Virus record (IMG/VR): IMGVR_UViG_3300018890_000001
Location: 124,001-188,000 of that record
Length of the DNA stretch: 64,000 nucleotides
Reading direction: 5' to 3' (one strand)
Source of the DNA: a virus
Both the position numbers and the translations under genes were made by a program. Positions 19,717 through 54,170 of the stretch are shown in pieces (position 1 is the stretch's first letter; each line of letters starts with the position of its first letter). The notes beneath the pieces were generated by a model. That model worked only from the letters and a program-made list of their open reading frames with translations, was not told where the DNA came from and made no database searches.

Positions 19717-19760
19717 ACAAAAAAGCCCCGTTACTGAATTCAGTAACGGGGCTTTTTATT
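19717..19760. terminator. Convergent intrinsic terminator
   Basis: AAAAGCCCCGTTACTG / CAGTAACGGGGCTTTTT hairpin between stops at 19703 (+) and 19759 (-). Confidence 0.9.
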
Positions 19761-21921
19761 ATTGTGGTCTAAACTCGATTTGAGTTATAGGCGCTAACTT
19801 TTTCTCCTCAAGGATCGATCGCCCGATCCAAATCCGCAACCGCTCTGCGATCTTAGATAGATCATCAGGTAGGTCACTGCGGAGCTTGTCTGTAATTGCT
19901 TTGATTTCGATGCCTTGAAGCTTTGCTTCTTTTTCGACATCGACTAGCGCGGCGTTGTAACCGCGATAGTATTCGCGATTGAGACTTGCTTGCCAGAGAA
20001 TCCGTAACATCGGGATTTCGTGAAATAGCAAGTCCTCGGACAATATGTCCACGATGCTTTCGTTTGCTTCGGCTAATTCGTCAGCCAAATCAGCCAACAT
20101 GAAAACGTATTCATTGAAATCAGTACGTGATTTCGATTTAGCGTGTTCGAGCTTCGCTTTTGCGAATCCATCTGGCGTTGCCAGACGGTAGATGTCTCGA
20201 ATCGTGTCCGCGACCGGACACTTGTCTTCAGGGAAAACCCTGAAATCTTGATAATCTCTCACGAAGCTTGCGACTTCGGAGATGATATCGACTTCCTCGA
20301 CTTCCTCCCCTGGTTCGGGGATTGGTTCTGCTTGGGCGATCGGATTGATTTCGATCGCCCGACACTCGAAAGTGCCATTGGTGTCAAGCACTTCTTGGAC
20401 GAGTGCGTCCGGCAGTGCTTGCTGTTCTTTTTTGAAGCTAATGAAATGCGGCTCGTGTAGCACGCCGATACCAGCTTCTGTTTTGTCGTCGCTGAGGCGA
20501 CACATCTCTGTGTCGCTGGTTGGCAGCGCTAACCTGAATCTCGAATCGAGATTTTCGATAATCTCTGCAAGTGCAACAGCACTCACGTAGATTTTGTACG
20601 GCGTGGTGTCGTACCCTTTGTTTTTTGGGCGTAACCTTACCTCACCGTCTTTGCCTTGAAAGATCAAAGCATCTTCTCCCCACCAAATCCGACAGTAGCT
20701 GTCGGTTGGATTTCTCCAATTCAACCACCGTGTAACCTGTGACAAAGCTTGTAAAAACTCGTCCCGGTTAAATTCTGCGGGTACTTCCCGGCTAATTGGC
20801 AATTCATGCCAATCGCTTGGGTATTCGTTGACATCCATTAGTTCACCGCGCAGTGCGGCGCTTTCTGATGTCAGTACGAATTCGTTGTTTTCCTTGAAGT
20901 ACAAGGAAATCATTTTGTCGTCATCCGATTGGATTCGACAGAACTCGTCGATTCCACTTTGTGGAACCAAAAATCTTCCTGGGTTGTCCGATCGCCCAAG
21001 CTCAGCGCTATAAACACTGATACCTGAGAATCCTTTGATTCGGGTAGCTCCGGTATGGATTTCTACCCCAGCTAAGGCGTGATCAGATTGTGACCTGCGT
21101 GGCAGGCTTGCAACAACCTTGGTTGCGAACTTCATTTTTTTCCACTCTTCGGGAGTGAAGTTAATTCTGGCGATCGTCGGAATGAGGGTTTGTACCTCTT
21201 TATCGAATGCGACTAGATCACCGTTGTGATGAACGATTCGTAGGCGATCGTCAGGCATCAAGCAAACTGAGATTTCCCAGTCTTTTTCTAGACAAACTTC
21301 AATATCTTGTTGAGGGATATTGATAGTCTTGACTGTACCGTTTTTCTTTGTGACTTTGGTCGTCACTTCAGCGACTTTTTTTGTCGCTTTTAAAAGGTAG
21401 TTATCTTTCTCTAGAATGTCTTTCTGCGCCAACCTTTTTAGGTCCGGGCGATCGAGATAGAACACTTTGAACTGCTCTATTCTTTCTATGATACCCTCAA
21501 CTTCGACGTATTCGTGGGCATAGCCCATCGCTACAAGTTCGCCATCGTCGTCGTAGCAAACGTCGTCATCTTCGTTGTCGGATTCAAGTTGTATTTGTAG
21601 CACTTGAATTTTTTTTGGTGCTTCCGGGAGTAATGGCGTTTCTTTTGTTTCAGCCATTTTGTCTACTACTTGGAGAGTCACTTCCGCACAAGGGTATTCA
21701 GCGGGATTTAGCGCTGTTAGCGCTGCTAGTAATTCTTCCTGACATACAGTGATTCTGAAAACCTGCGTTTTGGTTGTCCCGATTGCAGGTAAGGCGATTG
21801 TGTATTCACCTTTTGCTGTAAGCTTTTTTCCGCTAAGAATAACAGAGTTATATGCCCAATCAATGGTGACTGTTTTTGCGTTTAACTTGGTTATCGCGTT
21901 GACTAGCTTTTGAATTTTCAT
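19759..21921 (-). CDS. Divergent beta-sliding-clamp-like protein with extensions, 720 aa
   Basis: Reads as a DnaN-type clamp with long insertions. A first domain-like part (MKIQKLVNAITKLNAKTVTID...) covers about residues 1-245 with an acidic insert. Residues about 250-375 match DnaN domain II: FTPEEWKKMKFATKVVAS, then LAGVEIHTGATRIKGFSG, then FLVPQSGIDEFCRI, then VNEYPSDWHELP at the position of the FPDYRRVLP turn of E. coli DnaN. Residues about 385-500 match domain III (FNRDEFLQALSQVTRWL... VSAVALAEIIENL). A further helical C-terminal region of about 220 residues has no match. The classical ATDGHRL motif is replaced by KGFSGIS. It is transcribed divergently from a second clamp-like gene through a shared dyad. 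Clamp assignment is by pattern, not by search. Confidence 0.7.
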   Translation of the reverse strand: MKIQKLVNAITKLNAKTVTIDWAYNSVILSGKKLTAKGEYTIALPAIGTTKTQVFRITVCQEELLAALTALNPAEYPCAEVTLQVVDKMAETKETPLLPEAPKKIQVLQIQLESDNEDDDVCYDDDGELVAMGYAHEYVEVEGIIERIEQFKVFYLDRPDLKRLAQKDILEKDNYLLKATKKVAEVTTKVTKKNGTVKTINIPQQDIEVCLEKDWEISVCLMPDDRLRIVHHNGDLVAFDKEVQTLIPTIARINFTPEEWKKMKFATKVVASLPRRSQSDHALAGVEIHTGATRIKGFSGISVYSAELGRSDNPGRFLVPQSGIDEFCRIQSDDDKMISLYFKENNEFVLTSESAALRGELMDVNEYPSDWHELPISREVPAEFNRDEFLQALSQVTRWLNWRNPTDSYCRIWWGEDALIFQGKDGEVRLRPKNKGYDTTPYKIYVSAVALAEIIENLDSRFRLALPTSDTEMCRLSDDKTEAGIGVLHEPHFISFKKEQQALPDALVQEVLDTNGTFECRAIEINPIAQAEPIPEPGEEVEEVDIISEVASFVRDYQDFRVFPEDKCPVADTIRDIYRLATPDGFAKAKLEHAKSKSRTDFNEYVFMLADLADELAEANESIVDILSEDLLFHEIPMLRILWQASLNREYYRGYNAALVDVEKEAKLQGIEIKAITDKLRSDLPDDLSKIAERLRIWIGRSILEEKKLAPITQIEFRPQ

Positions 21922-21933
21922 GTTCGTATTAAG

Positions 21934-21996
21934 AAAGACTACTCTATTATTATACTATATATAATGTATCTGTAGTATAATAATAGAGTAGTCTTT
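21934..21996. promoter_or_regulatory. Divergent promoter with 24-bp perfect dyad
   Basis: The arms at 21934-21957 and 21973-21996 are perfect inverse copies. Each arm contains a complete TATAAT-N6-GTAGTC promoter (21937-21954 minus, 21976-21993 plus), so the two clamp-like genes have identical core promoters and are presumably co-regulated. Confidence 0.85.
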
Positions 21997-22008
21997 TAAG
22001 GATCGATC

Positions 22009-23967
22009 ATGACATTTATCAATGTGAAAACCTTCAAAACCGCAATCTCGCTGATTGCCAAAATAAGTGATCAATATACAGCACTTCACTTGTCGAAAGA
22101 TAGTGAGCTGTCATTCAGGACATGGTTTGGAAGCAATGGTTGGGTTAGTCTCCCAGTCGAGTCAAGTACGATTAAAGAAAGATCGAAAACAGCAAGTAAG
22201 TCAGTTACTGTTTCAACAGCATTGCTTGCTAAAATAGTGCGACAACTTCCAATCTTATTAGAAGAAATTGAAATTGAATTCGCACCGCCAGGATTAATAA
22301 TTTCTGGCGAGTACGGTACGAAAGGGAAAGATCAACCGTTGTACTCGTACAGATACGAATTGGGGAATTGTTCATATTTCCCCGATGGTGAATGCGATAT
22401 GACTGAAGAAAAGGTCATCGAATTTCAGGTAGGTGCAGAAATTGCTATCGTCCTGAGCAATGCAGCTACGCTTGCACAAAAATCTTCATATTCGATGTGG
22501 GACAATGTGTTTCTAGCTTGCAAAGAAGATGAAATTCTCATCACAGGAACAGACGGGCATCAACTGATGCAAAAATACGTCTATACCAAAGAGATGTTGA
22601 CTCAAAATATAGATTTTGTAGTCAGTTCGGAATTAGGGCTGGCGATCGGAAAGTTCGCTTTCGAGATCGCCCACTTTGATATTTACCAAAACTTTGTCAA
22701 GGTAACACTTGATGATTCCATCGAAATATTCGCGGTTCGCCCATTAACGCCAGAAAAATTCCCTGACTTTGAGAAATGGGACGATAAGGCGCATCACACT
22801 ACGCTTGTAGTTGATATTAATGAACTGAAGTCCCGGTTAAACAAGCTTGGGAAGGATGTTTGGATATGGCTATACGTAGAAAATGATGGAAGGCTGGCGA
22901 TCGAATGCTTTGAAGGTGATAGCGTTGGAGTCTCATGGATAAAAAATACCTTAAAGACACCACCAGCGCTAATAGTCCTCAACAGCAAACGGTTGTTGCA
23001 GACATTGAAAACAGCCAAAAAAACAACAACTCAAATACGATTAATGCTACCTAAATTAGTAGCAGAATCCGAGTTTGACGATTTCCTTAACGGAATTAAT
23101 GACGACCGACGCAATGTAGCGTTCCTTGAGTTCGACAAGAATTCTCACCTCATTGCCGGACACAAAAAAGAAAAATTGCGGACACCTCCAGGTATTCGTA
23201 ATTGGCTGATCGCTCAAGGGTGGTCAATCTTGCCAGAGAGTAAACCCGTATCGACTGCTGCGAAATCAGTAGTTAAGATCCTTAGCGATCGCTGGACGGG
23301 TAAGGGTTGGGAAAAACCCGAACTCGTAGCCTGTGGTTGCGGGACGATTCATGACGAATCCGACCTAAAACCGCAACTCAAAAAAGTAAAAGGTTATTGC
23401 GACCACTGCGAAGATTATCGCGAAATCGCACTATATCAAATCGACTATCGCTGCATAAATCCAACGTGTAATACATTGAATCGCGCAATGGTCGATCGCC
23501 CACTACCTGTTCCGATCTGCATGAACTGCGGAAAGGATGAGTTCACAACGCAGCATCATTTTGAGTGCTGTGACTGTGAAAGACCTGTAACGGTCAATAA
23601 TTGCAAGGTCTGTCCTTGTGACACGATCTTAGAAGAAGACGCGGCAATGTGGCAATGTAGTGTTTGTGAATCTACTTTCTTCGTGGACGATATCTGTGAC
23701 GAAGAAGATTTGCAGTACATTCAAGAAACCGAAGCTGATGACGCTATTTTTGTCGGATGCCCGTGCTGTGAACGATTTGATGTTGAGCTGACTAGCTCAC
23801 AAATGCACTCGTGTCACGAGTGCGGTTCTATAACGCACGATTCTTTTTACGTTCCGGCGATCGAAGCGCCTTCGCTTCCCTGTCCGGACTGTAATGAAGA
23901 CCTAAGTGACGTACCACCACAAAAGATTAACGATCCATTTGTGGTTGGTAGCGTGACACGGTTCTAA
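22009..23967 (+). CDS. Sliding-clamp-like protein fused to a cysteine-rich zinc domain, 652 aa
   Basis: The N-terminal about 380 residues follow DnaN order. Domain I ends with VSTALLAKIVRQLP and a YFPDGE turn. Domain II contains the hallmark TDGHQL (T181-L186; ATDGHRL in DnaN) and ends in TPEKFPDFEKW, the counterpart of GRFPDYRRV. Domain III has LIVLNSKRLLQTLKTAKKTTTQIRLML. Then, after a linker, residues about 442-628 hold roughly ten CxxC-type pairs (CDHC, CINPTC, CMNC, CCDC, CKVCPC, CSVC, CPCC, CHEC, CPDC), a tandem zinc-ribbon array. I know of no clamp with such a tail. Possible role: a clamp that recruits or modifies transcription or replication, or a decoy for host clamp-binding proteins. 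It is followed by a terminator. Confidence 0.78.
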   Translation: MTFINVKTFKTAISLIAKISDQYTALHLSKDSELSFRTWFGSNGWVSLPVESSTIKERSKTASKSVTVSTALLAKIVRQLPILLEEIEIEFAPPGLIISGEYGTKGKDQPLYSYRYELGNCSYFPDGECDMTEEKVIEFQVGAEIAIVLSNAATLAQKSSYSMWDNVFLACKEDEILITGTDGHQLMQKYVYTKEMLTQNIDFVVSSELGLAIGKFAFEIAHFDIYQNFVKVTLDDSIEIFAVRPLTPEKFPDFEKWDDKAHHTTLVVDINELKSRLNKLGKDVWIWLYVENDGRLAIECFEGDSVGVSWIKNTLKTPPALIVLNSKRLLQTLKTAKKTTTQIRLMLPKLVAESEFDDFLNGINDDRRNVAFLEFDKNSHLIAGHKKEKLRTPPGIRNWLIAQGWSILPESKPVSTAAKSVVKILSDRWTGKGWEKPELVACGCGTIHDESDLKPQLKKVKGYCDHCEDYREIALYQIDYRCINPTCNTLNRAMVDRPLPVPICMNCGKDEFTTQHHFECCDCERPVTVNNCKVCPCDTILEEDAAMWQCSVCESTFFVDDICDEEDLQYIQETEADDAIFVGCPCCERFDVELTSSQMHSCHECGSITHDSFYVPAIEAPSLPCPDCNEDLSDVPPQKINDPFVVGSVTRF

Positions 23968-23968
23968 A

Positions 23969-24832: not shown

Positions 24833-24874
24833 TAAAAAGCCCCGCAGGATTAATACCCTGCGGGGCTTTTTATT
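24833..24874 (-). terminator. Intrinsic terminator
   Basis: AAAAAGCCCCGCAGG / CCTGCGGGGCTTTTT hairpin just after the stop of the DGQHR gene on the minus strand. Confidence 0.9.
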
Positions 24875-26117
24875 ATTTAACTTTAGGTTTGGTAACGGGT
24901 AGTTCTAGTTTTTCGACTAAGTAGTCAAAAATGCGCTCATCTGCACCAGAAGTTATTACCTTCCCCTGCGTGTTCAGTACGCCAATGCCACCAACTTCAA
25001 GCCAATCAGCATTGGCTTTAGTCCAGTCTATTAATGAAAGTTTTTGCAAAATGGCAAGTTTACCTTCACCTAAAGGTTCTGTGGTCGGCATAAACACACT
25101 TTCCAACTTACCGATCGCCTTGACAGTAATTGCGTGTGTGGCGATCGTCTCCCGTCTGACTATGACAGGATCTTGTTCCCAGTCTTTCATGACTTGAGAA
25201 ATAGCGCGCCAATACTGACGAACTACTCGTTTTTGTTCGTCTATGGGGCTGTGCTTAATGTGTTTGCGAGAGAACTCGATCGCCTCCTGCAATGTTTTGT
25301 ACGGGAAAATCTTTTCGCTTTTCCCAGTTATTGATGGTTTGCCGTATTCAATGCAATCTTGAGAAAATACGGAAATGCGATCGTCGTGATCTTGAGCGAT
25401 AATGTGGGACACGAGGTGCGTCCCCGGATTGCGGTGATCCATCGATTTCGATAGACCTGTTGAAACCCGCGTTTGCTCTTCATTGATATCGCGAAACGCT
25501 TGTCTGCGGGCAATCACGCCGTCAATCTTGTAAAGTGTAGCCGTGATATATTCATCAGCTAGCGTCGGGTCTTCTCGCAAAGCGAGATTTAGACCAAGCA
25601 GGCGATGTTGTCCATCTAGAGGAAACAGTTTTGTTCCCTCGTGTAAGCAAAGTTCACCGTATCGTCCACCAACTTCAAAGAAGTCAAATCCGCCTTGAAT
25701 CACAATTGTGACTGCGGGAAGAATATGCGATGTCCTGTTTGCTAACAAGTAAACAGAGAGTTTTTTGACTTTCGGTCCTTTAACCTCACGTTGAATACGC
25801 TCCGGTTGCGGAACATTTTTTTCTGCAAATGTCAGTAGTTCTGAAAGATCACCAATTTTTAGCTGAACTGCATAAAATTCGCGGTCTGCCTGGATGCCTT
25901 TTAGTGCATCAAACTTTATCCAACATGGTTGGCTGGCGATCGGTTCGATCTGCTCTTCACCTATTATGGGTTTAGCAAATTCGACTGGTGTTTCCTCTTG
26001 AGAGGCATCTAACTGCTTTTGAGCTTCTGCTAGAGACTTCAACACGCCTGGTTTGGAGGAGGGCGAAGCTTTACTCGCGGGAGTCACCGATTTACTAGAA
26101 CTTTTTTTGATTGACAT
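24873..26117 (-). CDS. DGQHR-domain (DndB-like) protein, 414 aa
   Basis: Contains the signature FPLDGQHRLLGL (D168-R172) and the downstream pattern AFRDINEEQTRVSTGLSKSMD typical of DndB and related DGQHR proteins. The first 45 residues are serine/proline/lysine rich and probably disordered. DndB regulates phosphorothioate DNA modification operons in bacteria, and DGQHR relatives occur in other DNA-modification and defence loci. No dnd modification or restriction genes are present here, so this is an orphan. It might be a phage protein that interferes with host modification, or an unrelated ParB/Srx-like DNA-binding protein. Confidence 0.85.
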   Translation of the reverse strand: MSIKKSSSKSVTPASKASPSSKPGVLKSLAEAQKQLDASQEETPVEFAKPIIGEEQIEPIASQPCWIKFDALKGIQADREFYAVQLKIGDLSELLTFAEKNVPQPERIQREVKGPKVKKLSVYLLANRTSHILPAVTIVIQGGFDFFEVGGRYGELCLHEGTKLFPLDGQHRLLGLNLALREDPTLADEYITATLYKIDGVIARRQAFRDINEEQTRVSTGLSKSMDHRNPGTHLVSHIIAQDHDDRISVFSQDCIEYGKPSITGKSEKIFPYKTLQEAIEFSRKHIKHSPIDEQKRVVRQYWRAISQVMKDWEQDPVIVRRETIATHAITVKAIGKLESVFMPTTEPLGEGKLAILQKLSLIDWTKANADWLEVGGIGVLNTQGKVITSGADERIFDYLVEKLELPVTKPKVK

Positions 26118-28221: not shown

Positions 28222-28749
28222 AGTTGATCTGTGATAGAGGTTGGCTCATGCACCAGAAGTTTGCGCTTCGTGGTGCTATTTATATTTTACTAGAATTTGA
28301 CGCTGTTTGAGTCTTGACGGGACGAGTGGTGAAACGCGCTAACTACAAGACTTTCAGTATACATACAACGATTTTAAGACGGGTGGTTGCGTCTGATTTT
28401 TGCAAAGTGGTGGAAGTCTTGTCGGAGAAGGCTCTAGCGATTAAACTTATTGTTTTTGCAAAATTGTTCGATCACCTGTTATTACAACGCATTATGTATA
28501 GTGGTGGATTCTTTTCGAGGCAAAGGTTTTGGAGTTTTAGATGGTGTTTTATGTATAGTGGTTAGATCTCCCATAAAAACCATCAGGACGTGTCGCAAAA
28601 CCCTTATCCGATCGCCCATCACACCCTTCAATCCCACCTACTAGATCGCCCAAAAGGTACAGATTTGGGCAAGCTGAGCGAGAATGAAGGGGACAACTAA
28701 ATTTTCGCCCCACCTTCACCCAGGCAGCGCCATTACCGGCGCTTTTTTT
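28222..28749. other. Gene-free upstream region of the tape measure gene
   Basis: About 530 bases with no convincing gene. It contains two copies of TTATGTATAGTGGT (28492-28505 and 28549-28562), each with a TATAGT -10-like hexamer, and one copy of TTTGCAAAGTGGTGGAA (about 28396-28412) related to two sites inside the neighbouring pseudogene. HIP1 variants are frequent near 28600. This is the most likely place for the tape measure promoter. Confidence 0.5.
28727..28749 (+). promoter_or_regulatory. Hairpin plus T-run ending at the tape measure ATG
   Basis: AGCGCC-ATTA-CCGGCGCTTTTTTT; the T-run is directly followed by ATG 28750. It looks like an intrinsic terminator placed in the leader. Confidence 0.7.
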
Positions 28750-31700
28750 ATGTCCGACCAGTACGGCTTAGAGTCGAATTTTAAATTTGCTGCCTCCAGC
28801 AACTCGTTTTCACAGATGGATCGCGTGATCGCGCTGTTGGAAGGAATAGAGAAAGCGACCAAAGACACTGCCCAGACGATCGCCAACACGAGTCTGGGGA
28901 AAGACTTGATGAAGTCGCTCAATGCTGATGGAGTGAAGCGGGAAGGGAAAGAGATCCAGGGTGCTGTCAAGCAGATCGGTAACGCGCTAAGTCCTTTGAA
29001 AGCTGAGTTCCGCGCTTTGCGCGCTGAGTCTCGGAATATTGACTTTGGCGACATGACCGACACACATCAGTTTAAGCAAGCCGCCAGTGAAGTCGATCGT
29101 TACATCAAAAAACTGAAAGAGCTAGAAAACCAGATTAGTGGGGATTCTCCGGGCGATCGAGAATTCAAAGCTGGACTGCAATCGCAGCAGCGAGCGGCTG
29201 GCAACAAAGTGCAAATGGCGAAAGCGAACCGAGATGCGGCGCTGGCGACCGAACGATTAAGTTTTTCGCAAGCAGTTCAAGGTGCTGGACAAGGAGTGAT
29301 AGATACTTTCTCCGATCCCTTAGCGGCAGCAATGGAATTGCAACAAAGCCTGGGTGGTGTCAAAAAATTAGCAGATGATTTGAGCGCGGCTGGAGCACAA
29401 ACTTTACAAAATCAAGTATTTAACTTATCGGCCAGACTTGGCATCGAAGATACTAAAGTTGCTTCCATTTTTGAAGACTTGGCTGGTTCTGGTAAAAAGT
29501 TTGGGGATGAGATGGGTGGTGTTGGCTCTCGAATTGCCGAAGTTGAACAGATCTTAAAAAACCAACAAGCACTTGATATTAGTGAAGGTGCAGCTACGCA
29601 GTTAGATGTGACGTTGGGTTCAATTTATAAAAATTTAGTATCTAAAGATCCGAATGCAATTGTTGAACTGAACGCTAGAGTCGCCTCTAGTGTTAACGAG
29701 CTTGCTGATAAATTAAGCGATGTAAGGATTTCGGCAGAAGATGTTATCCCAGTGATGAACGTCGTCATGAATACTGTCGGTGACGCAGCCAACTTCCCTA
29801 TTGATCAAATCGCAGCTTATTCTGCGGCGATCGCCTCGCTAGGAACAATTGAGCCGGAAGCAGCGGGTTCGTTCTTTAACCGTTTGAGCGCCAAGATGTC
29901 TGAGAATACTGCGGCATTCGCTGGTGCCTTAAACATAAGCTCTGAGGAGTTTGAACGCAAACTAAATACCGATAAGTTAGGTGTAGTTACTGATTTAGCA
30001 GAAGCATATAAAAATGTTCAAGGTGGGGAACTAAAACAAGGCTCTTTCTTTGCGTCAATCGGTATTGGTTCGGTGCAAGATCAAAAGTTATTACAAGGTT
30101 TATCTAACAATCTAGATACCTTGAGATCGGCTGCTGTCGTGTCCAAGGCTGGATTCATGGGTAAAGAAGTACATGAAACAATTGACGCTACTGGCAAAAA
30201 GGTAATGAGTTTAGGTGAAAATCTTAAACAATTATCGATAGACAAAGAAGTCGCGAATAGATTGCAGCAGGCTGATTTCCAATCTAAGCGATTTGAAACA
30301 TCTCTGAAAGCGCTTAAAGACACATTGGGATCTGCGGTGGTGTCTGTACTCACGCCGTTAATGTCTATAGCTTCAGATATTATTGGTGCTTTTATATCGC
30401 TAACACAGATTGCTCCTGGGCTAACAAAGGTTGTTGCTTCACTTACTTTTGGTGCTGGTGCATTAGCTGTAGCAATAGGTGGTGCTGGTGTTGCACTGTT
30501 TACTTTCCAACAAGCACAGGCTGTCGCCACAACGGCCGCGATCACGATGCAAAGTAGCTTAATACCGCTGACTGGATTTTTTCAAACTTCGATGAACGCA
30601 TTCAAGGGTACATTCCCTTGGACGAACGCATTTAAACAGTCAACCGTAGTTGCGGAAGAGTTTGGGGTTGCTGCCAATGGTGCGAAAGGATTAATTGCAG
30701 GAGAACTGCAAACAGCATTTATCGGATTGCGCGCTCAAGTAATGATGACCAGTCAAGCTGCACTAGGGATGGGCAGAGCATTTATGCTGTCACCACTTGG
30801 TATCGCTGTTGGCTCATTCTTGCTGCTCGACCAACTGCTGCAAAGAGCAAACCCTCAAGTGCGACTGCTCGGTACTTTGTTTAGCGTGTTCAGTTCCGTC
30901 GCTGGTTTTGCATTCGGAATTTTGGAAGGCTTCGTCGGTGCGTTTCTTAAACTGCTGAAAGTACCTGCCGGAGTTGCCGGAGGATTGCTTGCGTCACCGT
31001 TCACAGCGATCGCCCAAGCTTTAGAGTTTGCGATGGAAAGCTTCAAAAACTGGGAGCGCTCCGGGAAACACATAGGTGAAAGCATTTTCAATATTTTGGC
31101 GAATCCGTTTATCTTTGCTGCCAGTGCGACCGCTGGCGCGTGGGATAAAACAATCAGCTTTATTGCAGGATTGTTGAAGCCGTTGGCTGACCTCGCAGCT
31201 TACATCGGTCACTTTATCCAAGGTTCTTTGTCTGAGGCGTCACCCGGACCTTCTTTGATGACGCGCAAGAATTGGGCGTTTACCGCAGCTTCAATGGTCG
31301 GTAGTTTCCTGTTAATGCAAGTCTCGTCAATAGTTACAGGTACAGCAATCCGAAAAGCTATGGGTGCAGCAGCAGCTTGGGTTGTAACAAACTGGCAAAC
31401 AGCGGTTACAAACGTTAACAGTTTCTTCTCAGGATTGACGCTGCCCGACACACTCACCAACTTCGCTACCGAGATCGGTAACGCCTGGAACAATACTTTC
31501 GGGATGATGGCAAGTGGCTGGACTAATTTTGTCAATGTTTTCACATCCACAACGCCTGACTTTGGTGGTCTGGCATTCGCTGGTATGGCAGCGATGAAAC
31601 CATTACTTGCCTGGGGTTTGCCCGACATCGTTTCAGAGAATTTCGACAAAATAACCCAACCTCGATCGCCCGCAGTATCGCCCGCAACCGCACCGCAAAT

Positions 31701-40700: not shown

Positions 40701-43281
40701 TATCGATCCAGATGGTTTGATTGTTGCCGTAGCCGAAGCCAAAACTGCAATCTCGACAGGTATAAAAGAAGTTGGTTACGCGGTATCCGATCGCTGGCGT
40801 TACTTAGAAAGAAGCAATGGTGGAAATCTCAGTGCAATGATGACGACTGATCTTAAGAAAGCTGGTGGCGCGTTCCGTATTCTCAAGGGAGATGTCGCTG
40901 ATTTTGCCAAGCGCGCCGGAACTTCTCTCAGTCAGATGGATTGGGTGGGTTTCAAAGCCGCTGCTGGAGATTTTTGGACTAACCTTAAATTCGGATTAGG
41001 TCAAATTACTTCTGGATTTGGCGGTGCTGGATTGAGCGCGTTGCTGTTCTACGTCCACCTATCACCGCTGGCATTTGTTTTAGGTGGGATCGCTTTAGCA
41101 GGTTTGGCAATCGCCACCAACTTCTTGGGATTGAGATCTATTCTCATGGGATTGATTCGCTCCTTTACCGGATTCACGCAAGTCGCTGTATCGAGCGTGA
41201 TGATGATAATCAACGTTGTTCGCGGTTTGGTGAAGATTTTTGGTGGTATCCCCGACGCCTTGCGCGGTGACTTTACCAGATTAGGAGAAGGAGTTGAAAT
41301 CGTTTGGACTGGTATTAAAGACGGTGCTCGCGGTTTGCTCCGAGGACTCGGGAACATCTTTGGTGGTGGGATTGAAGTTTTAGGGGGAATATTTGAAGGG
41401 CTGCGCCAAACAATTAACGTCGTATTCGGACCTGCGCTAATTAATTCAGCGCGTGAAGCTGTAACCGCGATCAAGCAATTGTTTGAGTCTGCTGGCGAGA
41501 CGATTACCTCAGCGCTTAAAAAGCCAGGTCAACTTCTAGACGGCATCGCCAACCGCTTCCGCAAAGGAAAAGAGCAAGTTACGGATTCACCAATTGGTAG
41601 AACGGTGGGGGCGATCGCTGAGGTTGCCAGCGGTAATGCACCAAATATGGATGCTGCCAGAGTCGCCCACGACTTCGATATGCGAATGCGTGGGAAAGAT
41701 CCGGATGCAGAACTAACTGCTGGCGATCGGGCGCGCCTCGCTCAAAGTCAGATGGAAAACGTACTATCTACTGGATTTGACACTTCGCGACATTTAGGGG
41801 TTGATGTTATTCGTCCGACAAGCAATCAAAACGTCTTGAGCGATATCGACGATGAATTGCGGAGAGCCGAAGCTGGATTGGGAAGTATGAGAGATCGCAG
41901 CGTGTCCGCGGCCGGCGCAGCAAACGACGCTTTATCTTCGCTGGGTGTTGCACTCAGTTCGTTTGCACCGGCACTGGCAGCGCCACTATTTATGGTGGGC
42001 GATCTATTGAGTGGATTTACCGGGATGTCGTTGGCTCTACCGCAACTGAGTGCGATGTTCCCAGGCGTATCCGCAGCAATTGGCGGATTTACTACTGCTT
42101 TGTCGGCCGGTGGCTTAACGGCGACTGGCATTATTGCCGGATTGGGTACAGTATTTACCGGCACGATGGCGGCAATTAGTTCCGCAGCTTCGATCGCCTG
42201 GGTAGCAATTAGTGGACCGATGCTACCGCTGTTTATATTGGTTGCTGGATTAGTTGCTGCGTTCGTGTTATTCAAAACCAACTTCCTTGGCTTTGGTGAC
42301 ATCGTTTCTGGAGTCTTCACAGGTATCCAAGATGCTTTCGGTGGAATTTGGCAGGTGATCGTCGACGGTATCCGCGACATTGGATCGACGATCGGTAAAA
42401 TAGCGGGTTATTTAATCAAGCCACTCGAACCGCTGCTGCAACTATTTGGCATCAGTCCCGGAAACCTTGGTAGTCAACTACAAACCGCGTTTGTGTCCAA
42501 TGCGATCGCCACAATACTTCGACCAATTCAGACGATCGGCTTCGTCATCAAAACAACGCTCCAAATTGTATTTGCTGTTATCAAAGCGGTTCTGTGGCTC
42601 GGTGGATTGATTGTCAGAATTATTTTGACGCCGATCGCGCTTGTCACGAATGCTGTTGCCGGAATTCTTCGCGGATTCCAAGCACTCGGCTCAATCCTTG
42701 GCTCTGTAATAATGACACCGTTCCAATTCTTGCAAGGTGTGGTGTCTTGGATTTGGAATAAGTTAATGCAATTGCCTGCACTTCTCGGACAGGCGATCGC
42801 CAACGTTCCGTTAATCGGACCTTTGCTTCAGAATTTAGGCAACACTATTTTCCAAGGTGGCGCGCAAACACCTGTACAGCAGTTCGCATCCGGTGGTGCG
42901 GTCGTCGGTCCTGGCTCCGGTACTGCTGACAGGATTCCAGCGTTACTGTCTAATGGTGAATTTGTAGTATCTGCAAAACCAGCCCAGGAAAATATGGGCT
43001 TGTTGACCGCACTCAATGAAGGTCGCAGCGTTGAAGTGATGCCAATGCCTGCACCGACGCGAATTCCGCTGGCGATCGCCAGCAAAGGTGAAGCTGTGCA
43101 AGCGGATGCCGTACCAAAACAGATGCCACCTGTTGAAATTAATATCAATTTACAAGGTGACATAGTATTGGCTGGTACTAATTCAGCAGCAGATGCACAA
43201 GAATTTCTCACAAAAATAGAACCTTATCTACAACAAGCTGTATGGGGAATGTTCCGAAATTGGGTTGATTTTAACCGCTAA
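28750..43281 (+). CDS. Giant tail tape measure protein, 4,843 aa
   Basis: The ATG at 28750 is chosen; an in-frame ATG at 28684 would translate through the leader hairpin. The N-terminal 500 residues have the TP901-type tape measure order (FSDPLAAAMELQQSLGGVKKLADDL, IGVSIGSVQDQ-like stretch, then ADFQSKRFETSLKALKDTLGSAVV before a hydrophobic block). Many alanine/glycine-rich hydrophobic helices alternate with coiled-coil stretches (for example about residues 2,590-2,720). SPGPS-x3-TR-x-NW occurs twice (near 31240 and 39100). The C-terminus has ASGGAVVGPGSGTAD...LSNGEFVVSA, a common tape measure end motif. By the usual 0.15 nm per residue the tail would be about 0.7 micrometre long. It fills the tail lumen and sets tail length. 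Confidence 0.95.
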   Translation: MSDQYGLESNFKFAASSNSFSQMDRVIALLEGIEKATKDTAQTIANTSLGKDLMKSLNADGVKREGKEIQGAVKQIGNALSPLKAEFRALRAESRNIDFGDMTDTHQFKQAASEVDRYIKKLKELENQISGDSPGDREFKAGLQSQQRAAGNKVQMAKANRDAALATERLSFSQAVQGAGQGVIDTFSDPLAAAMELQQSLGGVKKLADDLSAAGAQTLQNQVFNLSARLGIEDTKVASIFEDLAGSGKKFGDEMGGVGSRIAEVEQILKNQQALDISEGAATQLDVTLGSIYKNLVSKDPNAIVELNARVASSVNELADKLSDVRISAEDVIPVMNVVMNTVGDAANFPIDQIAAYSAAIASLGTIEPEAAGSFFNRLSAKMSENTAAFAGALNISSEEFERKLNTDKLGVVTDLAEAYKNVQGGELKQGSFFASIGIGSVQDQKLLQGLSNNLDTLRSAAVVSKAGFMGKEVHETIDATGKKVMSLGENLKQLSIDKEVANRLQQADFQSKRFETSLKALKDTLGSAVVSVLTPLMSIASDIIGAFISLTQIAPGLTKVVASLTFGAGALAVAIGGAGVALFTFQQAQAVATTAAITMQSSLIPLTGFFQTSMNAFKGTFPWTNAFKQSTVVAEEFGVAANGAKGLIAGELQTAFIGLRAQVMMTSQAALGMGRAFMLSPLGIAVGSFLLLDQLLQRANPQVRLLGTLFSVFSSVAGFAFGILEGFVGAFLKLLKVPAGVAGGLLASPFTAIAQALEFAMESFKNWERSGKHIGESIFNILANPFIFAASATAGAWDKTISFIAGLLKPLADLAAYIGHFIQGSLSEASPGPSLMTRKNWAFTAASMVGSFLLMQVSSIVTGTAIRKAMGAAAAWVVTNWQTAVTNVNSFFSGLTLPDTLTNFATEIGNAWNNTFGMMASGWTNFVNVFTSTTPDFGGLAFAGMAAMKPLLAWGLPDIVSENFDKITQPRSPAVSPATAPQIQQPPTVTQPEPILQISEQVQETQTIWQQMWTRIGDLTQQGIDRVRRAIETNLGAGVLAFVDKLGVIVTTFVQHYITIADAFKGQGGNNFAAPFVGAALIIWETAKAAGALSKEFMHFEEGFLHKVIDNFNLLGFTALMLSSMLMNLVTVPFESLRALPGLLGLITGGVLSFFGLGSQKLLEEGASKYVSFLKVFDRPGIGTAIAKGLPGIVAILMGMNVFEDLTQQWTATLIGWSNTLPQIVEGAVVGLESVFNLVEPLLRSVYPEGINIFPAEEVRGQIYATLGEVGAIFATFWQNIATSAGKVGDAIKPIFEAIATVKLMTVPQLFANYMGFGDAVQPVTNFIHSLPLLGMPIAELTVIEAAIGAIFDLLRSPTLKGFVGFLTGPLFNSLVVIGKTFFTLGSTIAIAFLGIPIFIAKNALEKARIAGEATKKGLLAPLVKGATVAKQAVIDQLRLLPGMISGLLRKIPIIGTFVASAFDIAMRGIGKVFVLAQEALPGYLDAMRSQLGVLKTAFVGLGVALQAVGMSLVGAAKYIINEALIPLAEAIGFLNPFKLIALYAQTKGLQGVTKGVNPIDLAVTGIDDAFVAISTKLGAFGKLEGEALKTAQGAFRPLSNLLSASVSTTAKNIADQAKNVAGAVAGGTGEAIDRAFPIRVLSAKLLAVRKTYLSTKAALAYDKAYVMGFNLGPVTEGFVLMRAVFVPMLQIVARAAFSWMTYYTVLEAITPALLNTVDAFARAHTELGFFSKIILGTTFILRVLRFAVVDTTNAVIKFSTTFFKTFQVLAPIVGKTAGIIAYGIGLIIKGATLGVQTLMTVMLLPVVAVSKVMQGILIAVKYVTQQIAAEVASFGQLFGNLLSAITRGDVVGSIVALGRLIPTLIQFGMAIGFFKLSRFVTAGVIFLAGAAVRTAKDGITLFVTSIVPYTFNLARRVGMAITHGIVVGAKQGASTLFFIFAALDRAITRTGNYVANAVGIVGENLAQMRAWAAVGLATLGAIGAAIYIVGSHFNVVARSIQFFGLLGGSMSLPMIAGLSAIIFLFLQTQDGFRELNAMIDALNHPVKWLQDSMANIAKTFSGGINTDWIAFFVEKLIRVIPIVLGGIFLLGFAVKKHIFGGFMLVWDVVKGIANSLINVVRSAKAIPGAVMGIGTEGRILEGVHKTRSTLGLYKNPQSKDARGNEFKLAKESAMLREKVIGNSQAQIVTLAQQQKTDYGHLAREVEVTKGGFLGVGARKQKEWQLTGAGEEFQQKRLAETLEAKTGVFGNNALRDVAKEISPARLGMMQGDELRAIFIKDRPDLAALGRALETIKTQNVSVMNVARMNSGSGNGTGNQSIENIKYGRAELERLNVRGLEGGQDSFASTELGAAQITKALKNLNVPAEQLTDNYTNLSSTTQNTRKFIERLLQYQLAAASGKIDNKAAQGVASATHLQNQFKLDTVDRSKIGDPAQFHELMKDKVAVLQAAIRNGSHAALKDFNFDDVANQLKGATSEEDYQLRLKGAIQNMMGHQLKTVENTFNQTPTIFETEASKLRSIAGETPDKISHGLKGIFSDVMGGIGQAFTNAAKKLPGRREGLSNEALRAIDRQIAGVAPLPDQRAQDSRRSKLEAAQRQLREGQLNSEKQQQVLQNIANLIQRDVYELTHPTMNPEQLRARVDRAKTERERLFNGMRGGNKALEQWITQFTAEEQRAISQQIKEGRFRGGALTTRGEDRTITEGTQRRIVATYNNNEASLARALGYENIKQVEQAFSTDEVLKNAKQGWGAQLRSLIGINEDANAYNKQIDALRTQIDQRVARQTSGFAEREARRNAAMANRESGFLAQLNQVGRSRADFTARLNATQQKAFDDFLKTGKLQSTRPDEQFKGMAKQLGFGEDDVSVQAFKDFQAALGKSENKNIAEYFKNALNNDPEKLRGTGSPFVAADGTQIDNPNERIKELIRNAVPPERRAAAWDQLERMSANRRRSSQNPDALQAWEHAIDYLATGRDTTDLTVDQIAEIGRAMELQGDNESVAMQLRSIANQRNTGFGSITDSIKSFLKNIETDAESVEEYIHNRLTDMSSFSVFGVHPFATLSDVLRNVLFEPIVSLVKGTWKWLANAIGNIGTNAAALKARATGMLASLPGVRTFAQARQRRETDRQSSLQSLSAKMGYENQEKFAEEFKKALASRGITEGRLQNKALQAILNSRRSKGVAETLNTSRFQEIQDNSGKIGEALAATLGLNGSPEEIAKLLAPGGFTTRAVSPLRNYFLKAVVPAIVDVGLAPLKLMWKIVRNPGLSLTAIKTKTGQIADAVADFMVSSYTTIRRTFSYAATQLGKVPLFGKIWGAVSGFFGKIASRIQGMAAPATTQRLREEQARRRSPEVNLSRARGGTFPVENLPDAPQAEIQRLNNTIASLSQFRAQEISRLNPFKRLLVFATTAARGAKEAWRQTAEEISAGGWRGLVARFKRIGYLLKRNISEGSPGPSADTRANWEHTQQSVSANMGEMAASAQVAGQQIQGDMQRTARRSAGFLGALHGAVAGAGKAGMAVGGAITAIGFAAQTASYSLVNMGLLDEASAANLNKFLEIFTLVGAVGGLMAPVMGAIVSSVMAIGSAFALIFNPVTLTMAAITGGILLANEGLKRFAGIDLLGPLFTNVQEPIQGTIAFIQGKIDEVFLWMTDKFGTQLSPILEPMGAAVATIQGAWQGFVDWFTAMPLVQTAIDIGMGLINALNHNPTVQIPLAWEGAIENIKGMLFNLPFVGDLIAGLMKDSLDPTKILGNLFQGFHNMLDQLESSGLARFGGGKMLDGLRGFLGGFGKKKAEVATEIPVEAGVKLNYKESLEAAIRQADFDARSGSATAQAASANLQYQMQTTGGQMDANQLGAAYQGAGGEFLQKAISKENNRLFLDQGAAAKEKRASIEQELQTINQKEVALQASYVQAIEKVQVAAAAPAPTNFIQKLLGGGDQVAKFTAQAEAVSQTMVALKEQKVAIEKQVAASSVVFDAGTDRMLKNMGIDPDGLIVAVAEAKTAISTGIKEVGYAVSDRWRYLERSNGGNLSAMMTTDLKKAGGAFRILKGDVADFAKRAGTSLSQMDWVGFKAAAGDFWTNLKFGLGQITSGFGGAGLSALLFYVHLSPLAFVLGGIALAGLAIATNFLGLRSILMGLIRSFTGFTQVAVSSVMMIINVVRGLVKIFGGIPDALRGDFTRLGEGVEIVWTGIKDGARGLLRGLGNIFGGGIEVLGGIFEGLRQTINVVFGPALINSAREAVTAIKQLFESAGETITSALKKPGQLLDGIANRFRKGKEQVTDSPIGRTVGAIAEVASGNAPNMDAARVAHDFDMRMRGKDPDAELTAGDRARLAQSQMENVLSTGFDTSRHLGVDVIRPTSNQNVLSDIDDELRRAEAGLGSMRDRSVSAAGAANDALSSLGVALSSFAPALAAPLFMVGDLLSGFTGMSLALPQLSAMFPGVSAAIGGFTTALSAGGLTATGIIAGLGTVFTGTMAAISSAASIAWVAISGPMLPLFILVAGLVAAFVLFKTNFLGFGDIVSGVFTGIQDAFGGIWQVIVDGIRDIGSTIGKIAGYLIKPLEPLLQLFGISPGNLGSQLQTAFVSNAIATILRPIQTIGFVIKTTLQIVFAVIKAVLWLGGLIVRIILTPIALVTNAVAGILRGFQALGSILGSVIMTPFQFLQGVVSWIWNKLMQLPALLGQAIANVPLIGPLLQNLGNTIFQGGAQTPVQQFASGGAVVGPGSGTADRIPALLSNGEFVVSAKPAQENMGLLTALNEGRSVEVMPMPAPTRIPLAIASKGEAVQADAVPKQMPPVEININLQGDIVLAGTNSAADAQEFLTKIEPYLQQAVWGMFRNWVDFNR

Positions 43282-45350: not shown

Positions 45351-45373
45351 TTGTATACCTGTATCAATTGTGG

Positions 45374-45391
45374 TATATTAATCATGTAGTC
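45374..45391 (+). promoter_or_regulatory. GTAGT-class promoter
   Basis: TATATT-N6-GTAGTC, 14 bases before the ATG at 45406. Confidence 0.78.
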
Positions 45392-47165: not shown

Positions 47166-47172
47166 ATCGAAG

Positions 47173-49940: not shown

Positions 49941-49981
49941 TGCCCTCTAGTTAAATAAGTGGTCTTTAAACCAAAATATTT

Positions 49982-50018
49982 AACCCTCGTTACTCCGTTT
50001 GTTTTACGAGTTGCGGAC
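49982..50018 (-). repeat. 37-bp inverted repeat, right copy
   Basis: Inverse of 44250-44286 with one mismatch. Relative to the minus-strand gene 50047-50580 it lies in the 3' region at the same place and orientation as the left copy relative to its own upstream gene. Confidence 0.85.
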
Positions 50019-50046
50019 TGTTGTGTTTCGTTCAGGATGATATGGT

Positions 50047-50580: not shown

Positions 50581-50638
50581 TTGTTTGTTAAACACCTTGG
50601 TTGTTATTTGAATTTTGGGTGTTTTTCTCCTTACATAT

Positions 50639-50667
50639 AATATACCAGTATTTATACTTAAAGTCAA
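50639..50667 (-). promoter_or_regulatory. Consensus sigma70-type promoter
   Basis: TTGACT (50667-50662), 17-base spacer, TATATT (50644-50639), followed by AAGGAG-like TAAGGAG and a leader hairpin (AAACACC/GGTGTTT) before the ATG at 50580. Confidence 0.8.
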
Positions 50668-50710
50668 GTAAATATAGGTGTACAAAGGATTTAAAGTATA
50701 AATAGACAAT

Positions 50711-50750
50711 AAAAAACGAGGTGTTTGAACAAACACCTCGTTTTTTTTAG
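50711..50750 (-). terminator. Intrinsic terminator
   Basis: AAAAAACGAGGTGTTTG / CAAACACCTCGTTTTTTTT hairpin after the stop at 50753. Confidence 0.92.
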
Positions 50751-50752
50751 AT

Positions 50753-51205
50753 TTAAGCTTGTGCTTCAAACCATTGTTTCATCACTGTGATAAATTGAGG
50801 TCGCAACTTACGGTACTCTAGTTGTATTTCAGCTAGTGCTTTTGCAGTTGCTAAATCTAGATTATCTTCTTGCTTGTCTTTCAACAACCAACGCGATTGC
50901 TCGATCACCCGCTCGACTGTATAAATGACTCGAATCGCTTCAACGTTGTCAATCGTTGTGACGGCAGTACGAAACAAATCTTGTAGCACAGACATTGTTA
51001 TTTGTGCGTAATCACTGAAATACCAGTGCCCAAACCCTTCCGCATCAAACATATAGTCTAGTGTGTCAATGGCTACCGCATATTGCTGTGTTTGTGATAG
51101 CTGATCATAAATTTCAGTCAGCGTACAGAGATAATTGGTGCATTTACGCACATGATTCATTTGTTGGTACGCATTTGCTTTGCATTCAATGTATTTTAGG
51201 TGCAT
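50753..51205 (-). CDS. Unrecognised helical protein, 150 aa
   Basis: Almost entirely helical in appearance, beginning MHLKYIECKANAYQQMNHV and rich in Q, Y and charged residues (TVERVIEQSRWLLKDKQEDNLDLATAKALAEIQLEY). No family is recognised. It has a full GTAGTC promoter and its own terminator. Confidence 0.72.
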   Translation of the reverse strand: MHLKYIECKANAYQQMNHVRKCTNYLCTLTEIYDQLSQTQQYAVAIDTLDYMFDAEGFGHWYFSDYAQITMSVLQDLFRTAVTTIDNVEAIRVIYTVERVIEQSRWLLKDKQEDNLDLATAKALAEIQLEYRKLRPQFITVMKQWFEAQA

Positions 51206-51219
51206 TTGAATCCGAAATT

Positions 51220-51237
51220 GACTACACGCCTATTTTA
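51220..51237 (-). promoter_or_regulatory. GTAGT-class promoter
   Basis: TAAAAT-N6-GTAGTC before the ATG at 51205. Confidence 0.78.
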
Positions 51238-51275
51238 CTAACAATTTTGTTGAAAAGCAACCATAGTTATATCTA

Positions 51276-51319
51276 AAACAGAACCCTTAGAATTTACAAA
51301 TTCTAAGGGTTCTGTTTTT
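51276..51319 (-). terminator. Intrinsic terminator
   Basis: AAAACAGAACCCTTAGAATT and its inverse, perfect stem, at the stop of the 51319-51753 gene. Confidence 0.9.
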
Positions 51320-51753
51320 CATTCGATTATTATTCCAAGCTCTATCACAAATGCTAAGATCGATCGACGCACGTCAGAACTTAATCCGTATTTGTCGTAA
51401 TATGCAAATTTTCGCTGATCTACTAATCTAGTCGCGATGCGGTACAATGGGTCGTCACCATACATTTGCACCAAATTAGCTTGTTGCCAACAGTAATCAA
51501 GCGTTGTGTCAGATTGTGGCAAAGCCTTTAATTTTTGAAGGGCTTTTAATTTGTGTTTTGCCCAACATCTTTCGTTTTCTTCAAACACGAGCATTTTGTT
51601 CCGCACAAGTAACGGCAATAAGCTGTAAGCCTCATCAACAATACTCCAGTTAGCTGAAAAAAGTGAGGTTTCGTATGTTGACCCAAATGGAAGGTGAAGA
51701 AGTTTGAAGATTTTTGTGTTGGTTGCATTGTTTCGACAAGCTATAATTTTCAT
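51319..51753 (-). CDS. Unrecognised protein, 144 aa
   Basis: Basic and aromatic, with a helical central part (MLVFEENERCWAKHKLKALQKLKAL) and LYRIATRLVDQRKFAYYDKYGLSSDVRRSILAFV. No family is recognised. Transcribed divergently from the 51830 gene through a short dyad. Confidence 0.7.
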   Translation of the reverse strand: MKIIACRNNATNTKIFKLLHLPFGSTYETSLFSANWSIVDEAYSLLPLLVRNKMLVFEENERCWAKHKLKALQKLKALPQSDTTLDYCWQQANLVQMYGDDPLYRIATRLVDQRKFAYYDKYGLSSDVRRSILAFVIELGIIIE

Positions 51754-51764
51754 ATTTCGCGATG

Positions 51765-51788
51765 TATGATACGACTTGTTGTATCATA
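51765..51788. promoter_or_regulatory. Divergent operator-like dyad
   Basis: TATGATAC-N8-GTATCATA between divergent starts at 51753 (-) and 51830 (+). Each arm resembles a -10, so a regulator or two facing promoters may use it. Confidence 0.55.
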
Positions 51789-51829
51789 ACATACGTGTTA
51801 AATTATATTATTGCACTTTATGTATACAT

Positions 51830-52912
51830 ATGAATTCACAAATAACGCTATATAACGATCGATCGCCAGCAACGATTCCGACTCGATCGCCAGCTTCAAT
51901 CAAATTCAAAGCGAAACCGATCGAGTATCGCGAAGGGTTTTTAAATGGTGGGATTGTCAAACGCCGACAATGTGAACGTTACGGTATAGTTCGGTTTCGA
52001 TCGGACAAGATACTCGTGTCTTGGGATGATGGTGAGAAAACAACACATCCGTCGCTAGAAGTTGCAAAAAACTGGGATTTAATAGAATCGGTTCCTTGGT
52101 TTATACCAGGACAGACGGTTGTTATACTTCCGTTAGCTGATGGATCGATCGCACCCGAATGCGAATACCGAGTCATATCGGTAAACGATGACTGGGTTGA
52201 AGTCCGGCAATTGATGGGCGATCGGATCGAGAAGTATCCGATTGGTGCGTTACCTGGATTTCCTTTTCGGAACGATGTGGTCATCAAAGAACGACCACTT
52301 CTGCCAATTCCTCCGCGGCATCAACTGATGTTTGCTGCTGGAAAGTATATTTGGGGCAAACCGCTCGTAGAATTGATTGGTAAAAAAAATGAGCTGTATC
52401 TGATTTTTAGACAGGAGCAGTCTCACTGGAGTGAGTCTGAAGAGGATTTTGTTTGGGCGTGGGAAAAAGAGTGGGATCAGTTTGTGAACCGACAAGCTCA
52501 CGACTTCGGTCACAGAGGCAAAAAAATCGGCACAAGCCTTTATATACAGGCGTCGATTGAACGACTTGCTGACTTTGATACCAAGAGCTTCGAGTTTATC
52601 ACTGATCGCGATCGACGCATTCCGCTATTACAGCTTTATTTGTATCCGGAGCTGGCGATCGACATAGTTGCCCCTAATTTTTACATCTTGAGTGCGGGTG
52701 ATTTCATGGAAGCGCGCATTGGGTTTAACAACAAACAGAAAGCCAAAAAACATGAAATCTTGATTAAGCGCGTCTCTGGTTGTAAAGAGCCAAAATTAGT
52801 TACAGGTGCTTACACAAACTGCAATTATGAATGGGTTGTTGTAAATCCATTCAAAAAGGTGGCGACGTTTCTGACGCATCTAACACAATTAGCAAAAACC
52901 CTTCCCAGATAA
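51830..52912 (+). CDS. Unrecognised protein with N-terminal barrel repeats, 360 aa
   Basis: The ATG at 51830 is chosen over an upstream frame that overlaps the dyad. The first 150 residues contain two SH3/KOW-like stretches (GIVRFRSDKILVSWDDGEKTTHPSLEVAKNWDLIESV and FIPGQTVVILPLADGSIAPECEYRVISVNDDWVEVRQL), each typical of DNA- or protein-binding barrels. The remainder, with a tryptophan-rich EEDFVWAWEKEWDQFV, is unfamiliar. It lies just upstream of dnaN but a terminator separates them. Confidence 0.7.
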   Translation: MNSQITLYNDRSPATIPTRSPASIKFKAKPIEYREGFLNGGIVKRRQCERYGIVRFRSDKILVSWDDGEKTTHPSLEVAKNWDLIESVPWFIPGQTVVILPLADGSIAPECEYRVISVNDDWVEVRQLMGDRIEKYPIGALPGFPFRNDVVIKERPLLPIPPRHQLMFAAGKYIWGKPLVELIGKKNELYLIFRQEQSHWSESEEDFVWAWEKEWDQFVNRQAHDFGHRGKKIGTSLYIQASIERLADFDTKSFEFITDRDRRIPLLQLYLYPELAIDIVAPNFYILSAGDFMEARIGFNNKQKAKKHEILIKRVSGCKEPKLVTGAYTNCNYEWVVVNPFKKVATFLTHLTQLAKTLPR

Positions 52913-52951
52913 ACAAAACCCGTAGTGTGATTGTATACTACGGGTTTTGTT
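52911..52951 (+). terminator. Intrinsic terminator
   Basis: AAACAAAACCCGTAGT / ACTACGGGTTTTGTTT hairpin overlapping the stop at 52912. Confidence 0.9.
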
Positions 52952-52973
52952 TGTTTAGTGCAACGTTACGTGT

Positions 52974-52991
52974 TACACTCTTTGTGTAGTG
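52974..52991 (+). promoter_or_regulatory. GTAGT-class promoter of dnaN
   Basis: TACACT-N6-GTAGTG, 15 bases before the ATG at 53007. Confidence 0.75.
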
Positions 52992-53006
52992 GTTGACGCA
53001 AATATC

Positions 53007-54170
53007 ATGAAATTTACAATCAATCAATCAGTATTGAGTGAAGTATTGGTTCAAGTAAGCAAAGCCGTTCCCGTCAAAGCAACACATCCCGTGCTGACCT
53101 GCTTTCGGATTGAAGCCGAAGCTAGTCAAGGTGCGTTAGCTGTAACGGGATTTGATTTGGCTATGGGCGTAAAAACCGAGCTTAGTGCAAACGTTATTCG
53201 CGGTGGAACTGCGGCAATTCCGGCAAAACTACTGTTGGACATCGTTTCTCGCTTGCCACAGGGTGAGTTAACACTTGAAACCGACAGCGAGTTCCTTAGC
53301 GTGCTAACCAGTTCGTCTGGTAGCTATGAAGTGCGCGGGATGAATCCTAAAGAGTATCCTGATCTTCCTGAAATTTCTGCGACTCAACAAATAAAGTTTG
53401 ATCCACAAACGCTTGTTGACGGGATTAAAAATACGTTATTTGCCGTATCGCCTGACGAGGCGAAGCAAGTGCTCCACGGAGTGCATTTCAAGATTCAAGG
53501 TAAGATTTTAGATCTTGCAGCGACTGACGGACACAGGTTGAGCGTGGTTTCGATCGCCTCCGAAGATTTAACTGAAGATAGCGTATTTTCAGCGACAATA
53601 CCGCTGCGCGTGATGCGGGAATTGGAAAAGCTACTTCAGCGACGCACCGAGCCAGTAGCAATCCACTTTTCAAGCGAACAGGTATTTGTTGAAATCAAAA
53701 ACGAAGATCGCAAGACGCGGTTAACGGGTCGTACATTGTCAGGTGAATACCCCAGATACCGAGAGCTGATTCCCCCAGTGTTTAAGTTAAAGCTTATAGT
53801 CGATCGCAAATCTTTATTGGGCAGTATCGAACGCATCAGTGTTTTTGCTGCGGACAAAAAAGATTTTGCCTGTGTATTTGCAGTGTCCGAGGCAGATCAG
53901 CGTATCGCCCTCTCTACCGAAACTCAAGAAATTGGGCACGGACGTGAGGCAATCGACGTACAAGTCGTCGGTACTGACACGACTTTTGCCTTTAATATCC
54001 GATATCTACTTGATATTTTGCGGACGGCGCAATCTAACGAGATAGTGTTACACGCCAACAATCCGCTTTCTCCTGTAGTATTCAGACCAGTGGGGGCGGA
54101 TGGTACTATTTTCTTGATGATGCCAAAACAATTAAGCGGCGGAAATAACGAATCCACTAAAGCAAACTAA
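53007..54170 (+). CDS. dnaN: DNA polymerase III beta sliding clamp, 387 aa
   Basis: Canonical three-domain DnaN. The ATG at 53007 (MKFTINQSVLSEVLVQVSKAV) is preferred over GTG 52989. Domain I has VLTCFRIEA and the RGMNPKEYPDLPE turn, domain II has AATDGHRLSVVS and GEYPRYRELIPP, and domain III ends VVFRPVG...FLMMPKQL, a good match to the conserved C-terminus (YVVMPMRL in E. coli). It encircles DNA and tethers polymerase. It has the same promoter class as the accessory genes, so it belongs to the phage set rather than being a passive host gene. The final residues are a short polar extension. It may load onto the family A polymerase or compete with the host clamp. Confidence 0.95.
   Translation: MKFTINQSVLSEVLVQVSKAVPVKATHPVLTCFRIEAEASQGALAVTGFDLAMGVKTELSANVIRGGTAAIPAKLLLDIVSRLPQGELTLETDSEFLSVLTSSSGSYEVRGMNPKEYPDLPEISATQQIKFDPQTLVDGIKNTLFAVSPDEAKQVLHGVHFKIQGKILDLAATDGHRLSVVSIASEDLTEDSVFSATIPLRVMRELEKLLQRRTEPVAIHFSSEQVFVEIKNEDRKTRLTGRTLSGEYPRYRELIPPVFKLKLIVDRKSLLGSIERISVFAADKKDFACVFAVSEADQRIALSTETQEIGHGREAIDVQVVGTDTTFAFNIRYLLDILRTAQSNEIVLHANNPLSPVVFRPVGADGTIFLMMPKQLSGGNNESTKAN

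Follow-up and report, generated by a model that had tools for sequence, protein, structure and literature searches.

Two divergent, co-regulated clamp-type proteins beside a canonical DnaN in a tailed phage: a possible accessory sliding clamp

A 64,000-nucleotide stretch of phage DNA, comprising bases 124001–188000 of the 199,763-base virus record IMGVR_UViG_3300018890_000001 in IMG/VR (hereafter the window), contains two neighboring genes that are transcribed away from each other and whose products resemble the bacterial sliding clamp DnaN. These products are referred to as protein A (720 residues; 19759–21921, minus strand) and protein B (652 residues; 22009–23967, plus strand), and the same phage also encodes a canonical DnaN (53007–54170, plus strand). 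An earlier note on this DNA had proposed three sliding clamps in one region. Sequence comparisons support a phage with three clamp-type proteins, two of them divergent and co-regulated, and the trio recurs in two further phages. Our preferred interpretation, to which we give somewhat less than an even chance, is that A and B, two extensively altered paralogues of the DnaN clamp type, form an early accessory clamp, separate from the replicative DnaN and equipped with built-in recruiting tails.

To detect clamp-type proteins, a profile built from 18 diverse phage DnaNs was run against every open reading frame (ORF) of the window. Three ORFs matched, namely canonical DnaN (E = 5e-141), A (9e-7), and B (1e-5), and the next ORF scored 0.57. 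Profiles built from three sequences gave no match between A and B, or between A and the DnaNs of the three phages, and the deeper 18-sequence profile was needed; aligned identity of A and B to bacterial DnaN is about 15%. In standard searches, A matches PF00712 above the Pfam cut-off (9e-10) and has no hit to TIGR00663, the DnaN equivalog model with a whole-protein threshold of 137.65 bits. B falls just under the cut-off for PF00712 (2e-4) and far under that for TIGR00663 (3e-5; 23.1 bits), and it matches PHROG 947, “DNA polymerase processivity factor,” at 1e-5. Canonical DnaN passes the TIGR00663 threshold with 276.5 bits (3e-82) and contains all three Pfam domains.

Protein B is a genuine, if highly divergent, clamp with three domains in the DnaN order, judged by an HHalign comparison of its clamp body (residues 1–412; 22009–23244, plus strand), in which residues 4–346 align in register with DnaN residues 5–351 over all three domains and 318 columns. 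The comparison gave a probability of 97%, an E-value of 7.9e-11, and a score of 82, far above the maximum of 16 reached in 32 control comparisons, for which profiles had been reversed or their columns shuffled. The domain limits are approximately 1–130 for D1, 131–262 for D2, and 263–412 for D3. D2 contains the motifs TDGHQL (residues 181–186) and KFPDFEKW (residues 250–257), which the earlier note had quoted correctly, as it had the coordinates of both genes and VNEYPSDWHELP in A (residues 364–375). Six predicted inner helices of B together carry a net basic charge of +10, as would be expected for a surface facing DNA. AlphaFold models of A and B were built on three-row alignments containing just three close sequences and are of low confidence (mean pLDDT, the predicted local distance difference test score, of 35), so no ring geometry is argued from them and their Foldseek matches are taken as weak support. 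For B, the model has an alternating strand-helix-strand pattern, its best Protein Data Bank matches are PCNA and DnaN (E = 1e-4), and its first domain superposes on the N-terminal domain of a phage Pol III beta subunit with a root mean square deviation of 4.5 Å over 130 columns.

The clamp-like part of protein A is shorter. Residues 251–500 (20422–21171, minus strand) match a stretch of DnaN that covers the latter half of D2 and reaches into D3 (HHalign probability 92%, E = 5.6e-7, score 52; controls at most 21), which supports the presence of two clamp domains, one D2-like (251–378) and one D3/D1-like (379–500). This is the most conserved part of A, with 81–90% identity between phages, above the 50–70% seen for canonical DnaN. 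The Foldseek search with the model of A returned DnaN for the top four matches, at E-values of 0.03 or worse. The alternating basic and acidic helices and predicted strands of A had raised the idea of four clamp domains, which found no support in the profile comparison.

Both proteins carry long C-terminal extensions. The tail of B (residues 413–652, 240 residues; 23245–23964, plus strand) is rich in cysteine and zinc-ribbon-like; in the three-phage alignments, 22 cysteines are invariant, and the tail has a conserved end, PFVVGxVTRF. Because these cysteines mostly form CxxC pairs, the tail is likely to be an array of zinc ribbons that would bind zinc, and comparison with known zinc families gave nothing convincing beyond a weak likeness to the eL43/L37ae zinc ribbons. 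The tail of A (residues 501–720, 220 residues; 19762–20421, minus strand) is predicted to be helical in the low-confidence model, ends in an invariant APITQxEFRPQ, and had no family match. Compared with bacterial DnaN (TIGR00663, PF00712/PF02767/PF02768, PHROG 947), then, B shares three domains in order and A two, and some of the pocket is kept, as is the motif that links D2 to D3 (FPDF in B, EYPxxW in A). What sets them apart from DnaN is the tails of 220–240 residues, which DnaN lacks, the altered pocket, and the unrecognizable first 250 residues of A.

All three phages have A and B in the same divergent arrangement along with a separate DnaN, and A and B of the two other phages are 64–74% identical to those of the first. 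No further relatives were found in viral contigs and in phage and plasmid collections beyond the same two phages, and bacterial genomes, scanned for A, gave no match; these scans used short exact patterns, which distant relatives may escape. Wherever synonymous changes are not saturated, the ratio of nonsynonymous to synonymous substitution rates (dN/dS) for A and B is 0.03–0.3, indicating strong purifying selection. Given these values and the conservation between phages, the sequences identify A and B as functional proteins rather than decaying copies. The division of labor between clamps suggested by the earlier note is, in view of this selection and of tails unlike anything in DnaN, a reasonable idea, although not every version of it fares equally well, as described below.

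Between the two genes lies a perfect inverted repeat (21934–21996), with 24-bp arms at 21934–21957 and 21973–21996 and a 15-bp loop, and the repeat is perfect in all three phages. Each arm contains one copy of the core TAGTATAATA-N5-GTAGTC, at 21937–21957 on the minus strand and 21973–21993 on the plus strand, in agreement with the identical divergent promoters noticed earlier. The arms measure 24 bp in the first phage and 29 and 27 bp in its relatives, and substitutions between phages are mirrored in both arms. With up to three mismatches permitted, the genome of the first phage has 20 copies of the motif compared with one in the reversed-sequence control, and the second phage has 13 compared with none. 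Most copies lie 14–22 bases ahead of an ORF start, and they are usually preceded, at a distance of about 17 bases, by a TTGAC-like box; examples from the motif scan of the window are found at 13992–14012 (minus), 51220–51240 (minus), and 45371–45391 (plus). Position and consensus suggest that these elements are promoters, and elsewhere they precede small non-structural genes. The class as a whole reads as a sigma-70-like TTGAC-N17-TATAAT followed, at a fixed 5–6 bases, by GTAGTC near the presumed transcription start. The copies at A and B lack a −35 box, the mirrored copy sitting in its place. Since the two cores lie so near each other that two polymerases could not occupy them simultaneously, they are likely to fire alternately and in a balanced manner. 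The covariation of the arms across phages likewise predicts that A and B are likely to be co-expressed at equal levels in a coupled manner.

The accessory-clamp interpretation is favored because the phage has, besides a normal clamp, two diverged and tailed paralogues that are probably co-expressed and whose promoter belongs to the class found before small non-structural genes. Under this interpretation, A and B would be produced together early in infection and would associate, probably through the usual edge-to-edge contacts between clamp subunits, into a ring or arc of mixed subunits on DNA, where the host clamp loader would place them. The zinc-ribbon-like tail of B and the helical tail of A would then act as recruiting modules, either replacing the peptide pocket of DnaN or working alongside it, and candidates for the recruited activity are RNA polymerase, a nuclease, and repair or modification enzymes. 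Replication would be left to the canonical phage DnaN, as would clients such as a QLSLFG-tailed protein described below. Among the possible mechanisms, heterotypic assembly is favored by the mirrored promoter, and both the A–B contact and the encirclement of DNA are inferred. A more specific form, in which A and B build a heteromeric DnaN-type ring that encircles DNA as a second dedicated clamp, with a different effector tail on each side and a logic like that of 9-1-1, appears rather unlikely. Archaeal heterotrimeric PCNA (Sulfolobus PCNA1-2-3) and the eukaryotic 9-1-1 clamp offer a parallel in that several divergent paralogous clamps occur in one organism and may assemble heterotypically. 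They differ in being trimers of two-domain subunits, whereas the proposed A–B assembly would consist of clamps of the bacterial three-domain type with fused tails.

Several observations weigh against this interpretation. Divergent transcription by itself is no proof of an A–B complex. The DnaN domain order ascribed to both proteins by the earlier note holds for B, and for A it is supported for D2–D3; residues 1–250 of A (21172–21921, minus strand) gave no signal with the DnaN profile beyond that of a shuffled control. Judging from its predicted secondary structure, this region possibly consists of an acidic linker (residues 114–148) flanked by clamp-domain remnants, one or two in number, and should there be two, A could not close a simple ring of six domains with B. 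Of the pocket motifs, A keeps just the EYPxxW linker; its docking pocket appears to be lost, and the charge summed over its predicted helices is not positive. The docking pocket of B is only partly retained: across the three phages the TDGHRL site of D2 reads TDGHQL, TNGHQI, and TDGNRI, FPDF is kept, and the C-terminal MPxRL is not evident.

The main rival explanation, which we consider unlikely, assigns A and B to host takeover early in infection: as poisons or decoys, they would disrupt the replication of the host by pairing with host DnaN or by occupying its loader or clients, thereby freeing these for the phage. The degenerate pockets are compatible with a non-productive clamp, and the company of the A/B promoter class, small non-structural genes, looks early. 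Known sabotage proteins of this kind are usually small, whereas A and B are large (650–720 residues), have elaborate conserved tails, and are both retained together; similarity searches linked no inhibitor to either protein. There is precedent for phage proteins that target DnaN or its loader, since Twort gp168 and G1 gp240 bind Staphylococcus aureus DnaN and N4 gp8 binds the delta subunit of the clamp loader (PMC3594737), and overexpression of Adephagia gp35, a protein termed a sliding clamp, is toxic (PMC11373665).

It is less probable still that the clamp fold has been reused for a scaffold that does not form a ring, A and B being DNA- or protein-binding platforms (arcs or monomers) that never encircle DNA. 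Such a role would fit the two detectable clamp domains of A, its lack of a net basic inner surface, and the large domains appended to both proteins. It fits B less well, since B retains three domains in register and basic helices that are compatible with encirclement of DNA.

Bearing on loading and transcription, searches of the three phage records found no match for PF13177 or for the clamp loader of a Nodularia phage, no DnaE, no RNA polymerase beta subunit (PF00562), and no sigma factor above the cut-off (PF04542), although divergent analogues of gp55 and gp33 may escape these models. As no phage loader was found, any phage clamp would presumably depend on the loader of the host. The weakest explanation, and a very doubtful one, is the late-transcription clamp of the T4 gp45 type raised by the earlier note, in which A and B would move along phage DNA and stimulate RNA polymerase at promoters used later, with the zinc-ribbon-like tail touching the polymerase: transcription machinery commonly contains zinc ribbons, but no positive evidence emerged, sigma factor, RNA polymerase large subunit, and clamp loader all went undetected, and most promoters of the A/B class carry a sigma-70-like −35 box. 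T4 gp45 is the precedent for a transcription-activating clamp (PMC2988020; PMC7892883), and vaccinia G8R is a late transcription factor with a predicted PCNA fold (PMC2674943); the likeness lies in a viral clamp-fold protein with possible roles outside replication. T4 gp45 is also the replicative clamp, however, and needs gp55 and gp33 as well as a phage loader, none of which was detected with A and B. The promoter class of A and B, found elsewhere before small non-structural genes, also lends no support to a gp45-like role, although gp45 is itself an early product.

Canonical DnaN, whose ORF opens at GTG 52989 and whose likely start is ATG 53007, has intact docking-pocket motifs in alignments (ATDGHRL and a C-terminal LMMPKQL). 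A probable client of a clamp is the 147-residue protein encoded at 15886–16329 (plus strand), which belongs to the mycobacteriophage L5 gp82 family (PF25735, 1.9e-18). In all three phages, its C terminus is QLSLFG (16309–16326), an end of which about 0.001 would be expected by chance in the genome of the first phage, and QLxLF is an established beta-clamp-binding consensus (PMC4549789). Proteins of the L5 gp82 family may therefore work on the sliding clamp. QLSLF or QLSLFG ends were also seen in a protein with a weak match to Eco57I, putatively a DNA methylase (record 37209–38378), and in a fragment of a TnpB-like transposase (19483–19923 of record G001). The conserved gene directly upstream of canonical dnaN (51776–52912) encodes, in two phages, MNSQITLY near the protein start, which resembles a clamp motif; the third phage reads QIARY instead.

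The phage is a tailed phage of 200 kb, with a tape-measure protein (28684–43281) and a major head protein (57011–58129) identified by PHROG matches in the window and portal and terminase genes elsewhere in the record. The nearest named relatives of its canonical DnaN, at 32–34% identity, are found in Nodularia phage vB_NspS-kac68v161 and Synechococcus phage S-H1, and its thymidylate synthase contains a DUF4346 domain, which is mostly cyanobacterial; on these grounds, the host is probably a cyanobacterium. The Nodularia phage has a single DnaN and its own clamp loader, and no homologue of A or B was found among its proteins. The second phage record (188 kb) is collinear with the first and circularly permuted, a sign that the two are probably nearly complete, and the third is a 44.6-kb fragment. 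Next to B, in all three phages, lies a gene for a DndB/DGQHR-domain protein (24873–26117, minus strand; PF14072, 3e-51), whose orthologues in the relatives are 79–80% identical. A family-A DNA polymerase (8478–10835) is absent from the collinear second phage, where an AAA ATPase occupies the corresponding stretch. Four small tandem paralogues of 129–141 residues lie at 12013–13974, and the second phage has two. The ribonucleotide reductase (record 29717–32356) is split into two ORFs of 389 and 409 residues, compared with a single 785-residue ORF in a relative.

Bacterial and phage sliding clamps are normally homodimers encoded by a single gene, and the open-access papers searched report no phage with several DnaN-type clamps. 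If the accessory-clamp interpretation is true, the bacterial clamp can, like PCNA, split into specialized forms. The phages carrying A and B would offer a small, testable system for the roles of a second clamp in transcription, repair, or host takeover, and their mirrored, co-changing promoter would be a natural design for the equal expression of two partners.

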